The notes under the pieces were generated by a model, which did not search any database, was not told the origin of the DNA, and saw nothing but the letters and a program-made list of their open reading frames with translations. A DNA stretch of 40,927 nt. Source: a bacterium. GTDB lineage: Bacteria; Chloroflexota; Chloroflexia; Chloroflexales; Kallotenuaceae. Below, piece after piece: positions 3,493-7,668 of the stretch. The DNA lies in contig JADDQF010000056.1 in NCBI GenBank assembly GCA_016781505.1, forward strand, positions 1 to 40,927, given 5' to 3'. Positions within the stretch are counted from its first letter, which is position 1. Every line of letters begins with the position of its first letter. The position numbers and the translations under genes are program-made.

Positions 3493-5094
3493 TTATTCAA
3501 CGATGGTCTTGGAGCGAACGCCAACATCCGCCAGGGAATGGCTGCTCGCTGTGGGCGACTGTCCTGCCGTTGGGGTATCGTCGGCAGCGAGGGGGAAGCT
3601 GAGGGTAACGGTGGTTCCGCTGCCCGGGGTGCTGGTCAAGGTGGCCGTGCCGCCGTGCGCTTCGACGATGCCTTTAACGATCGCCAGCCCAAGCCCGGCG
3701 CCGCCACGGGTTCGGGTGCGTGCCTGATCAACACGATAAAAGCGATCCCATACATGCGCCACGTCGTCCGCGGGAATGCCGACGCCGGTATCGCTGATGG
3801 CGACGCTAGCCTCGCCTGCACGCTGTTCGACCGTGACGCGGACGCTGCCGTCAGGGGGCGTGTATTTGCGGGCGTTGTCCAGCACATTCAGGAACACTTG
3901 CCGGAGACGGTCGGGATCGCCGATGACTCGCACCGACGGTGTGGCGTTGATCGTGAGCTGATGATCCGGCGTCGGGAGGTGCTCCTGTTGGGCTACATCC
4001 TGGGCCAAGAGCGCCAGATCAACCACCTCACGCCGCAGCGCAGGCCGCGCATCCAGACGGGAAAGCGTCAGGAGATCGTCAACCAAACGGCCCATGCGCT
4101 CCAGCTCGCCGTTCATCCGCTGCAGCGTGCGGCGCTGTTGGGTCGGATCGCTGACCGCGCCCAGCATCAGCAGCTCAAGCTGGCCACCTACCGCCGTTAA
4201 GGGTGTGCGCAGCTCGTGGGCAGCGTCCGCAATAAAGCGGCGTTGGACCGCAAAGGTCGCTTGCAGCCGCGCCACCATCTGATCAAACGCCCGGCCAAGC
4301 GCGCCGATCTCGTTATGGCTGTGGAGGTTGCTGCGGGCCGCCAGATCGCCTTGCCCAACCTGTTGGGTAACGCCCACCAGTCGGCGCAGCGGGTCGATAA
4401 TGACGCGGGTCGCCCACAAGCTCAGCACCAGCGCCGTCAGGCTCACCAGCAGGGTTCCGCCAATCAGCGCAGCCACCAGCCAGCGCAGCAGCGCGTCGGT
4501 CGGGCGGAGCGATGTGGAGATTTGCAGCACACCGATAAGGTAGGAGCCGTCATAAACCGGCATCAGCACTGCGAGTTGCCGCTCCATGGCATCATAATCC
4601 CGGAAGCTGACATCCGCGCCGCGCAGCACCTGGTCAAAGGCTTGATCGTTGGGCCGCGGGGGCGCGGGAGGTTCGGGGGGCGCGGGAGGCTGCCGGGGCT
4701 GGCCCCGGAGTCCGTGTCCTGGCCGCCAGCCATGCCGTCGCTCTTGAGCGGGCGCACTTTGCGCGAGCACGGTGCCATCAGCCTGGTACACCACCACACT
4801 GGTGGTGCTGCTGGTAAGTGCTGCGGCCAGCTCTTGCAGCTCGGCGCGCTGTACGTCGGTAGGCGCGGCGGTTGGCAGTGGCTCATGTGAGCCGGAGCTG
4901 GTTGGTCCGTCGGCGCGTTCGCGCAACAATGCCCGCGCTTGGAGCTGCAGCTGCGTCGTCGTTTGAGCATTAATGAACGATCGGACCGAGACATACAGCG
5001 CCATGCTGAACAGCGTGAGCAGCAGCAGCATGATCGCTGCAACGGCGAGCGACAGCTGGGTGCGTAATGACCAGTTAGACCAACGACGACCCAT
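3493..5094 (-). CDS. Membrane sensor histidine kinase (HAMP-HisKA-HATPase)
   Basis: A 533-residue sensor kinase. TM1 is at about residues 11-36. A periplasmic or extracytoplasmic domain of about 160 residues includes a Pro-rich stretch (PPAPPEPPAPPRP, near 137-147). TM2 is about 202-226, followed by HAMP. HisKA has AAHELRTPLT with phospho-acceptor H293. HATPase has the N box NVLDNARKYT (N407), G1 DTGVGIP, F box WDRFYR and G2 GAGLGLAI. It autophosphorylates on H293 and passes phosphate to the adjacent regulator. ATG at 5094 lies 2 bp after the regulator's TAG, so translation is probably coupled. Family knowledge: similar EnvZ/BaeS-like kinases sense envelope stress or metals; the signal here is unknown. 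The two-helix membrane protein at 5905-6438 may be part of the same circuit. Confidence 0.95.
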   Translation of the reverse strand: MGRRWSNWSLRTQLSLAVAAIMLLLLTLFSMALYVSVRSFINAQTTTQLQLQARALLRERADGPTSSGSHEPLPTAAPTDVQRAELQELAAALTSSTTSVVVYQADGTVLAQSAPAQERRHGWRPGHGLRGQPRQPPAPPEPPAPPRPNDQAFDQVLRGADVSFRDYDAMERQLAVLMPVYDGSYLIGVLQISTSLRPTDALLRWLVAALIGGTLLVSLTALVLSLWATRVIIDPLRRLVGVTQQVGQGDLAARSNLHSHNEIGALGRAFDQMVARLQATFAVQRRFIADAAHELRTPLTAVGGQLELLMLGAVSDPTQQRRTLQRMNGELERMGRLVDDLLTLSRLDARPALRREVVDLALLAQDVAQQEHLPTPDHQLTINATPSVRVIGDPDRLRQVFLNVLDNARKYTPPDGSVRVTVEQRAGEASVAISDTGVGIPADDVAHVWDRFYRVDQARTRTRGGAGLGLAIVKGIVEAHGGTATLTSTPGSGTTVTLSFPLAADDTPTAGQSPTASSHSLADVGVRSKTIVE

Positions 5095-5096
5095 AC

Positions 5097-5783
5097 CTAG
5101 CCCCGGATCGCGTAGCCAACGCCACGCACAGTCTGAATACGCTGCCGGTCCCGGTCGCCGATCTTGTCCCGTAGCGCCGAGATATGCACTTCCACAACGT
5201 TGGTGTCGCCGATGTAATCGTAGCCCCAAACCCGATTCAACAACGTTTCCTTGGTCAGTACCTGGCCGGGATGCGCCAGGAGCGCTTCGAGCAGATCAAA
5301 CTCACGCGGCGTGAGATGCACGGTCTCGGCGCCAACGCTGACTTGTCGGGTGTCACGATCAAGCCGCAGGTTGCCGCTCTGCAGCGTATGCGGCAGCGCG
5401 ATCCGGCGGCGGCGGAGCACGGCACGTACACGAGCAAGCAGCTCTTTGAATTTGAACGGCTTGACCAAATAATCGTCCGCGCCGACTTCCAGGCCGCGCA
5501 CGGTGTCGTCCAGCTCATCGCGCGCCGTAAGCATCAGCACCGCCATGTCGTCCTGGCGATGCAGCCGCTGCAGGACTTCAAAGCCGTCATAGCCGGGGAG
5601 CATCACGTCGAGGATCACCAGATCGGGCCGAAACTCGCGGGCAACCGCGAGCGCGGCCACGCCGTTCGCAACGGTGCGCACCGTGTAGCCCTCGTAGGAA
5701 AGGCCCGTTTCTAAAAACTCGGTGATCGTCGGCTCATCGTCGACGACCAGAATCCGTACATTGCCCTCGGTGCCTTCGTCCAT
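5097..5783 (-). CDS. OmpR/PhoB-family response regulator
   Basis: A 228-residue regulator. The receiver domain has VRILVVDDEPTITEFL near the N-terminus (acidic pocket), phospho-acceptor Asp in PDLVILDVMLPGYDGFEVL, and the conserved Lys in DYLVKPF. The C-terminal winged helix has the usual LTPREFDLLEALLAHPGQVL and TVRGVGYAIRG. ATG 5783 is preferred because GAGGAG lies just upstream and the receiver starts within about 9 residues; an in-frame extension upstream has no family similarity. The cognate kinase follows 2 bp later. It probably binds DNA as a head-to-tail dimer on direct repeats, and 11-bp-phased repeats of the expected kind are present at 6510-6553 ahead of the neighbouring membrane-protein gene. 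Confidence 0.96.
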   Translation of the reverse strand: MDEGTEGNVRILVVDDEPTITEFLETGLSYEGYTVRTVANGVAALAVAREFRPDLVILDVMLPGYDGFEVLQRLHRQDDMAVLMLTARDELDDTVRGLEVGADDYLVKPFKFKELLARVRAVLRRRRIALPHTLQSGNLRLDRDTRQVSVGAETVHLTPREFDLLEALLAHPGQVLTKETLLNRVWGYDYIGDTNVVEVHISALRDKIGDRDRQRIQTVRGVGYAIRG

Positions 5784-5823
5784 GCCGGCGCTCCTCAGCC
5801 CTGCCCTTGCTTGTGCCATATGT

Positions 5824-5851
5824 ATTGTAGCGCTTGTGCAAAACTCTGCAC
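5824..5851 (-). promoter_or_regulatory. Putative promoter of the two-component operon with a small inverted repeat
   Basis: On the minus strand TACAAT occupies 5829-5824, a good -10 box about 40 bp before the regulator ATG. The -35 area has no good consensus but contains the inverted repeat GTGCA-N6-TGCAC (5836-5851), suitable for a repressor or activator. This places a separate start for the two-component genes just after the hairpin that ends the upstream gene. Confidence 0.4.
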
Positions 5852-5855
5852 CCGA

Positions 5856-5878
5856 AGCACCTTCACATTGAAGGTGCT
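5856..5878 (-). terminator. Perfect 10-bp hairpin between membrane protein and regulator genes
   Basis: AGCACCTTCA and TGAAGGTGCT form a perfect 10-bp stem (5856-5865 and 5869-5878) with a 3-nt loop. On the minus strand it lies about 27 bp past the stop of the 5905-6438 gene and is followed some 9 nt later by TTTT, so it looks like a weak intrinsic terminator or an attenuator reducing read-through into the two-component operon. Confidence 0.55.
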
Positions 5879-5904
5879 CCGGGCTCCAATCTTCCAGCTT
5901 AGCT

Positions 5905-6438
5905 TTACAACATGCGGGTTGGGCCAGTTGTTGGGCCTGGTGGGGTGGGATCAACGTGTGGAGCTGGCTGCGGCGGCGCTGGATTGCCTGGTGGGGTGTT
6001 CCAGTCGGCCTGCTGCTCCGGGCCGTGCCAGCCACCTGCTCCGCCCGAACCGCCCGAGCCTCGGTTTCGGCCCGAAACGAGCCACAGGCCCGCGCCGATC
6101 AATGCGAGTGGGAGCAGCAAGCCGCCAATCCCAAAGCCGCCACGCTGCCAACCAAAGCCAAACGGACCGTGACCATGATCGCGCTCAAAGCCCGAGCCGC
6201 GCGCATGTTCACCGCGTCGCGTCGCCGGGGCTTGGGGTGCCGCGGGGGCTTGGGGTGCTGCCGGCTGCTCCCGGCGTGGACCTCGCTCTCGGCCATAGCT
6301 GCCGGGACCAAAGCCGCCAAACATACTCCAGCGACCGCCAAATACCAATACTCCCAGCGCAAGCCCAATAATCAACGGCAGCAGCCAGCCGCGTGGGCCG
6401 CGTTGCCCAAAACCTGGTCCTTGGGAAAACGGATTCAT
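5905..6438 (-). CDS. Small Gly/Pro-rich protein with two membrane segments
   Basis: A 177-residue protein I cannot assign to a named family. ATG 6438 is preceded by GAGGAG. The N-terminus is short and cytoplasmic-like (MNPFSQGPGFGQRGPRG), TM1 is about residues 17-34 (WLLPLIIGLALGVLVFGG), then comes an Arg/Gly/Pro/Ala-rich region including APQAPAAPQAPA, then TM2 near 105-122 (LLLPLALIGAGLWLV), and a Gly/Pro-rich tail. It lies next to the two-component genes on the same strand, and its promoter region carries phased repeats. I infer that it is a target of that system and possibly an accessory or feedback membrane protein. Low-complexity composition makes distant homology unreliable. Confidence 0.7.
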   Translation of the reverse strand: MNPFSQGPGFGQRGPRGWLLPLIIGLALGVLVFGGRWSMFGGFGPGSYGRERGPRREQPAAPQAPAAPQAPATRRGEHARGSGFERDHGHGPFGFGWQRGGFGIGGLLLPLALIGAGLWLVSGRNRGSGGSGGAGGWHGPEQQADWNTPPGNPAPPQPAPHVDPTPPGPTTGPTRML

Positions 6439-6493
6439 ACTGATCTCCTCCATGATGCCTGCAATCAACGGTGTGCAGCGCTGTGATGGTTGT

Positions 6494-6553
6494 AGTGTAG
6501 GGGGCACAGCTGAAGAAATCGGCGGTGAATCCTGAAGATTGGCTGAAGATTGG
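6494..6553 (-). promoter_or_regulatory. Promoter with 11-bp-phased direct repeats, probable response-regulator site
   Basis: On the plus strand CTGAAGATTGG occurs twice in tandem (6532-6542 and 6543-6553), CTGAAGAAATC at 6510-6520, and a degenerate unit between them at 6521-6531, giving four units in exact 11-bp phase. A minus-strand -10 candidate TACACT is at 6499-6494; with a 17-bp spacer the -35 falls inside the repeats. Established knowledge: OmpR/PhoB-family dimers bind head-to-tail direct repeats spaced 11 bp and activate from -35-overlapping positions. The adjacent regulator (5097-5783) is the obvious candidate binder. Confidence 0.5.
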
Positions 6554-6564
6554 CGCCGGGGGAG

Positions 6565-7668
6565 TTAAGGGTGCTGCTCTGTTGGCGGTTGGATTTCCCC
6601 GTCGGTCCACAGCGACAGGCGCTTCAACGCGTCAACCTGTTCGCGCTGCCCGATACCCGCTTTTTCAACCGCCGTGTGCAGTGTTTGGATCACCTGATCA
6701 TACGTAGGGCGATCCACCGGGTAAGGATGCCGATCCTTGCCGCCGTGCGCGAATGAAAAGCGGGCCGGATCGGTGATGCTGACGGGTGCCCCGTACACGA
6801 GCTCGCCGACCAGACTGAGCGCCCGCAGAGTTCGCGCGCCGACGCCTTCCATGCCCAGTAGTGTTGCGAAATCTTCGGGCTGGCGCTCGTATGTTTTCAG
6901 CAGGATGCGATGGAGCCGCTTTGGATCGACATCGGCGCCGCGCACGTCATGATGCGCCGGCAAAGTCAGCTCGCGCAGCTTGGCCACCTCGGCCACGATC
7001 TTTTCGGGCTGCTCGCGCGCCAAGGCCGCGGTAACATCGCGCGCTGCCGCGCTTTCGTGCGCCACCAGATTCCAAACATCGGCGGTTGCTTCGGTTGCGA
7101 TGGCCGTGTGCGGCGCATCGACAAAGCTGTGCACGTCGGCGCTGAACCAGTGGTAACGGCGCGCGTAGCCATTGGCGTCGTTCATGCCTTGCTGGATCAC
7201 CGCCCAATGGCCGGTGCGGTCGAGCAGAAAGACATGGTGATAAATTTGATAGCCGTCTTGCAGGGCGTTGTTGTCGACTTTGGCCGCCAACCGGCTAGCC
7301 TGGACAAATGGATCGGGATCGAGGCCGAGCCATGCTCCGGCTGCCGTCAGCTCCGCCGGTGTTTGGCGGGAGGTGCGGCCTTTGCCGCCCGCGATCACCA
7401 GCCCGAGCTCCCGCTGCCGCGACTGCAAGCCCTGCTTCAGTGCGCCGCAGACCGTGGTAGTAACGCCGCTCGAATGCCAATCCATGCCGATTACGGCGCC
7501 AAAGGCTTGGAACCAGAGGGGATCCGACAAGCGCCGAAACAGCTCGACCGTGCCCTGCTCCACCACGATCCAGTTCGCAATCTCGGCGGACAGCTTCACC
7601 ATTCGCTCAAAAAGCCAACGTGGCGCATGGCCTCCGTGCAAGGGCAGATTAGCGGTTCCACTGCGCAC
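6565..7668 (-). CDS. DUF763 domain-containing protein
   Basis: A 367-residue protein matching the DUF763 family (COG1415) by its opening GTANLPLHGGHAPRWLFERM, the segment AVIGMDWHSSGVTTT, the GGKGRTSR motif, and the helix-hairpin-helix-like GMEGVGARTLRALSLVGELVYG followed by DPARFSFAHGGKDRHPYPVDR. GTG 7668 is chosen because the family begins at this point and AAAGGAG lies 7 nt upstream. The family is scattered through archaea and thermophilic or environmental bacteria. Its function is not established; the HhH-like segment and conserved His/Asp suggest a nucleic-acid-related activity, by inference. It stands alone, with 175 bp before it and the membrane-protein promoter repeats after it. Confidence 0.93.
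   Translation of the reverse strand: MRSGTANLPLHGGHAPRWLFERMVKLSAEIANWIVVEQGTVELFRRLSDPLWFQAFGAVIGMDWHSSGVTTTVCGALKQGLQSRQRELGLVIAGGKGRTSRQTPAELTAAGAWLGLDPDPFVQASRLAAKVDNNALQDGYQIYHHVFLLDRTGHWAVIQQGMNDANGYARRYHWFSADVHSFVDAPHTAIATEATADVWNLVAHESAAARDVTAALAREQPEKIVAEVAKLRELTLPAHHDVRGADVDPKRLHRILLKTYERQPEDFATLLGMEGVGARTLRALSLVGELVYGAPVSITDPARFSFAHGGKDRHPYPVDRPTYDQVIQTLHTAVEKAGIGQREQVDALKRLSLWTDGEIQPPTEQHP

Follow-up and report, generated by a model that had tools for sequence, protein, structure and literature searches.

A phased CTTYAR repeat array as the probable operator of an autoregulated OmpR-type two-component system in Chloroflexota

An array of CTTCAG hexamers in 11-bp phase lies upstream of a small gene-regulator-kinase cluster in the window, which is the whole stretch of 40,927 nucleotides analysed here and corresponds to contig C8 of a 4.18-Mb genome in 159 contigs (G000). 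The array is beyond chance. Quite probably it acts as operator for a promoter that depends on an activator: here the co-encoded OmpR-type regulator would bind and activate the small gene, its own gene and the kinase gene. Because the array is conserved at the same place in relatives, it is very probably a docking site for the system's own regulator, and its position 10 nt before the -10 element, with no -35, fits activation. The regulator and kinase genes lie downstream in the same direction, and the circuit is therefore probably autoregulated. The best reading of the element is an autoregulatory, activator-dependent operator of the PHO-box or PmrA-box kind, which is a known type.

Table 1. 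Features of the array locus in the window.
Feature	Positions	Strand	Remarks
DUF763 gene	6565-7668	minus	
Array unit 1, CTTCAG at 6548-6543	6543-6553	minus	CTTCAG also in G003, G004 and G005
Array unit 2, CTTCAG at 6537-6532	6532-6542	minus	CTTTAG/CTTTAA in relatives
Slot 3, in phase, degenerate in the window	6521-6531	minus	Filled (CTTCGG, ATTCAG) in G026, G034, G049 and G127
Array unit 4, CTTCAG at 6515-6510	6510-6520	minus	
Candidate -10, TACACT	6494-6499	minus	10 nt after unit 4
Probable ribosome binding site of the small gene, GGAGGAG	6445-6451	minus	Precedes the ATG at 6438
Small protein gene	5905-6438	minus	177 aa, two hydrophobic segments, Gly/Pro/His-rich
Intergenic stretch with strong hairpin	5784-5904	minus	
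OmpR-type response regulator gene	5097-5783	minus	228 aa, Response_reg and Trans_reg_C
Sensor histidine kinase gene	3493-5094	minus	533 aa, HAMP, HisKA and HATPase_c

The array occupies the 126-bp gap that separates the DUF763 gene from the small protein gene. On the minus strand the gap sequence runs CTTCAGCCAAT CTTCAGGATTC ACCGCCGATTT CTTCAGCTGTG CCCCC TACACT, with CTTCAG at phases 0, 11 and 33 and a degenerate slot at phase 22. The sequence-only reading had claimed four units in 11-bp steps together with a minus-strand -10 candidate. The units at 6510, 6532 and 6543 stand in exact phase and the -10 candidate was confirmed, but the weak unit at 6521 matches CTTYAR at none of six positions, so that the array in the window consists of three units and an empty slot. 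The roles assigned earlier to the regulator, kinase and small protein genes agree with the open reading frames and the domain search; the small protein had no Pfam match in the family search. A two-hexamer sigma-70 promoter was not found within 5700-6700, where the -10 candidate stands without a -35. When step sizes from 7 to 15 were tried, only 11 fitted the 0/d/3d layout. For a shuffle test a window-only pattern of 24 fixed bases was used, against which G003, G004 and G005 score 2, 4 and 4 mismatches; this level was reached in none of 1000 dinucleotide shuffles of each intergenic region (G000, G003, G004 and G005). The exact CTTYAR-N5-CTTYAR pair occurs once in the whole window, and the full array is the sole match in the genome at up to three mismatches. 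The locus combines head-to-tail repeats of 11-bp period, as in OmpR/PhoB-type operators, with an OmpR-type regulator (receiver and winged helix) encoded alongside and an array that covers the -35 region at a constant distance before the -10; outside family f1 this constancy comes from the search pattern.

The sequence-only reading would have been refuted by a lack of conservation where gene order is retained. This did not occur, which supports its interpretation: the array is kept at the regulator locus in all four family genomes with upstream DNA (G000, G003, G004 and G005), each with the same 55-bp layout of 0/11/33 plus a -10 at +49. The remaining two were not judged because their contigs end there: that of G001 stops 153 nt before the regulator (L026/L106), and in G002 the small gene is at the beginning of a contig, and a search at E 1e-70 gave no match to the regulator. 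The closest named relatives of the regulator come from a Chloroflexota MAG (L026, 85% identity) and a Herpetosiphonaceae MAG (L027, 73%). A family pattern built from the arrays of G000, G003 and G004 and run on six family genomes gave 0 mismatches at the regulator orthologue in these three and 2 in G005, with no control matches in any of the six; the units alone gave one exact match in each of the four genomes. Over the 55-bp array G000 and G003 are 80% identical, as against 25% in the preceding 60 bp and 31% in the following 55 bp. The relatives differ in spacer letters and keep the hexamers and their phase, and a -10 lies at the same distance (TACACT in G003, TATAGT in G004, TAGGCT in G005). 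In G003 both the array and the order small gene-regulator-kinase are retained. The first gene differs in the other two: the array of G004 immediately precedes regulator and kinase, and that of G005 is directed at a divergent exported-protein gene adjoining the regulator.

Two extra matches to the family pattern were present elsewhere in G004. The one with 2 mismatches (G004:C150, L169 1106) has TATAGT at the usual distance and stands in front of a gene for a receiver-domain protein, with an OmpR-type regulator-kinase pair close by on the opposite strand. The other, with 3 mismatches (G004:C191), was set aside as being at the false-positive level, since 54 genomes of the order outside the family gave eight 3-mismatch matches. 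Matches to the small protein in G004 (L024, not on the contig of the regulator) and G027 (L025), at E about 1e-5, are probably due to low complexity and were left out of the comparison. In G002 the small-gene homologue adjoins a convergent HtrA-like protease gene (L023 624-1904), and the G004 regulator locus includes a gene for a DUF1800 protein that bears a Tat signal (L027 7182-8675).

In the proposed mechanism, the phosphorylated co-encoded regulator would bind head to tail on the 11-bp-phased CTTYAR hexamers, with one dimer on units 1 and 2 and a second on slots 3 and 4. The most promoter-proximal subunit would then lie over the missing -35, 10 nt from the -10, and the bound regulator would recruit RNA polymerase, after which the small membrane protein, regulator and kinase would be transcribed. 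Since solved relatives bind such direct repeats as head-to-tail dimers, the array most likely takes two dimers and activates. The outcome would be an autoregulated two-component circuit with an envelope protein as its first product. We infer not only binding and activation by this regulator but also read-through along the operon and an envelope signal. At other loci exported proteins or an HtrA-like protease are encoded where the small gene would stand, which suggests that the signal concerns the envelope and that the first gene acts there.

Direct repeats of 11 bp are a documented site type of OmpR/PhoB regulators (PMC4832192, PMC4415409, PMC10927774). The PHO box bound by PhoB of Escherichia coli and relatives consists of two 11-nt head-to-tail direct repeat units (PMC4415409). 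The array resembles it in this arrangement but has CTTYAR in place of CTGTCAT repeats, and phosphate genes were not noticed beside the arrays. The PmrA/BasR box is also similar, being in Acinetobacter a 6-bp direct repeat with a 5-bp gap, TTTAAG-N5-TTTAAG (PMC10927774), and unit 4 of G003 reads CTTAAG. The spacing thus fits YTTAAK-N5-YTTAAK, the Salmonella form, whereas the window has CTTCAG, and the arrays have mostly C or T at the fourth base and up to four slots. By sequence the regulator is nearer mycobacterial PhoP, its closest solved relative, than BasR. The box of Mycobacterium tuberculosis PhoP is likewise a tandem direct repeat, of 7 bp with a 4-bp spacer, with tandem dimers and also trimers and tetramers, and PhoP binds three and four tandem motifs too, with higher affinity (PMC4832192); its letters are TCACAGC, unlike CTTYAR. 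In GraXRS an accessory gene is co-transcribed with regulator and kinase, but the GraR site is palindromic, so direct repeats are not universal in the OmpR family (PMC3128592). The likeness to such a three-component system lies here in gene order alone, and the membrane protein encoded here is a putative accessory protein.

Three other explanations can be considered. The array could be the operator of a different OmpR-family regulator, giving cross-regulation instead of autoregulation. The genome encodes at least eight further OmpR-type paralogues of the regulator, and in family f5 a related CTTYAA array precedes thiol/sulfur genes and also a regulator that falls outside the main group of the tree. 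Such an arrangement is unlikely, however, as the array stays with the regulator orthologue despite the changes of gene order in G003, G004 and G005, and it was absent from the examined DNA of the eight paralogues. It is about equally improbable that the bound regulator represses the promoter. OmpR-family regulators are able to repress, and the array is situated within the promoter, but a -35 at the 17-bp position was found in none of the 12 arrays listed and the 10-nt gap to the -10 is fixed. A missing -35 with such a gap is what one would expect if an activator stood in for the -35. The two perfect tandem copies of CTGAAGATTGG in the window could also resemble a simple duplication, either recent or by chance and without function; this we consider scarcely credible, for it is refuted by the conservation of hexamers and phase among relatives with different spacers.

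The link between array and regulator covers part of the regulator's homologues. Among 80 homologue loci the array was present in three (L027, L028 and L036; control 0), which rules out that all homologues carry it; 77 were without it in the DNA examined, some of them, such as L026, with little upstream DNA. In a quick tree, from which the truncated regulator of G086 was left out, all array-linked regulators except that of G082 fell in one group of 22 rows (SH-aLRT 87), which also includes one paralogue from the window's own genome and several array-less loci. The 77 loci without an array include four near relatives in the tree (L029 and L032-L034). A search of G000 for the pair of units only, at up to one mismatch, gave 17 matches against 5 in the control and was too loose for naming targets. 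One site, at C156:30028 (L112), has a pair of CTTCAG units in 11-bp phase upstream of a gene for an exported protein; it was rejected as a second target, since the pair was absent in the five homologous loci from G001-G005 (L184-L188).

Beyond the family, a first search, which covered 60 genomes including that of the window, detected the family pattern at 1 mismatch in four members of genus g10 (family f4). In one of them, G026, 774 bp separate the array from a regulator with 53% identity that follows it, and an exported-protein gene lies in between. A looser, class-wide pattern that held no information on the regulator was run on 158 genomes and matched 19 sites in 15 of them; the control had 3 matches, all in one genome. 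At this threshold the array was seen in only 4 of the 8 g10 genomes covered. Of the 19 sites, 15 lie outside the family, and an OmpR-type regulator follows within 1.5 kb on the same strand in eight. The arrays of G026, G034, G041, G049 and G072 precede exported protein-regulator-kinase, that of G127 HtrA-like protease-regulator-kinase, that of G082:C57 regulator-kinase, and that of G086:C129 a DUF302-like protein (named by eye) and regulator, then a kinase fragment. The chance of eight of 15 lying beside regulators was estimated at 1e-14, assuming a generous density of 40 such regulators per 5 Mb. As four of the eight are from sister g10 genomes, a figure near 5 of 12 is closer to an independent count. 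No regulator was found downstream of the remaining seven (G063 twice, G046, G082:C23, G085, G086:C242 and G086:C560); at the G063 sites one contig ends, and L141 lay outside the regulator search.

Across the phylum (400 genomes) another pattern matched 20 sites, spread over 17 genomes, against 1 match in the control. A regulator homologue was found within about 1.5 kb on either side of four of the 14 new sites: downstream at L172 and L181, divergent at L174 and convergent at L176. Two further new sites adjoin only a kinase (L171 and L177). The first gene after the array often encodes an exported or membrane protein, and several phylum sites precede exported-looking genes, including those for a DUF1800 protein (L182) and a secreted-repeat protein (L174). 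The DUF1800 gene (L182 1617-3026) comes directly after the array of G328, which is only distantly related within the phylum. In family f5, CTTYAA arrays (L168 1244, L164 1286, L166 65 and L167 1474) precede genes of thiol or sulfur type, namely OsmC-like/rhodanese/MBL, DUF302-glutaredoxin and thioredoxin reductase-like, named by eye from their translations. These f5 arrays may possibly mark a thiol or sulfur stress regulon.

A wider proposal, which we put forward tentatively and regard as rather doubtful, is that CTTYAR-N5 arrays define a phylum-wide envelope-stress regulon in Chloroflexota, in which one OmpR-type clade would control its own operon and exported proteins (two-TM protein, DUF5666/OB-like proteins, HtrA, DUF1800 and secreted-repeat proteins) and the first-gene product would act as a third component through feedback on the kinase. 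Neither the motif, its spread nor a candidate Chloroflexota regulon was found in the literature searched, which lay outside subscription papers. The array provides this regulator clade with a testable DNA code, and the pattern makes it possible to list, by sequence only, the genes that an unstudied sensor system targets. Because the arrays are repeatedly paired with exported proteins, DUF5666, DUF1800 and the two-TM protein become candidates for one envelope response.

The stretch between the small gene and the regulator gene folds into a hairpin of -47.7 kcal/mol in G000 (shuffles -37.0, sd 3.4). Hairpins are also present at this place in G003 (L022 2116-2269, -61.9 kcal/mol) and before the regulator in G001 (L026 1-153, -51.5 kcal/mol); they differ in sequence, and each of the three is about 2.6 to 3.1 sd below shuffles. 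Possibly the hairpin is an attenuator or a processing site, and its effect may be that mainly the small protein is produced. It could also uncouple the regulator from the array promoter. On the upstream side, the 3' end of the DUF763 gene lies only 16 bp from unit 1 on the same strand, so that transcription from this gene could possibly run on into the small gene-regulator-kinase operon.
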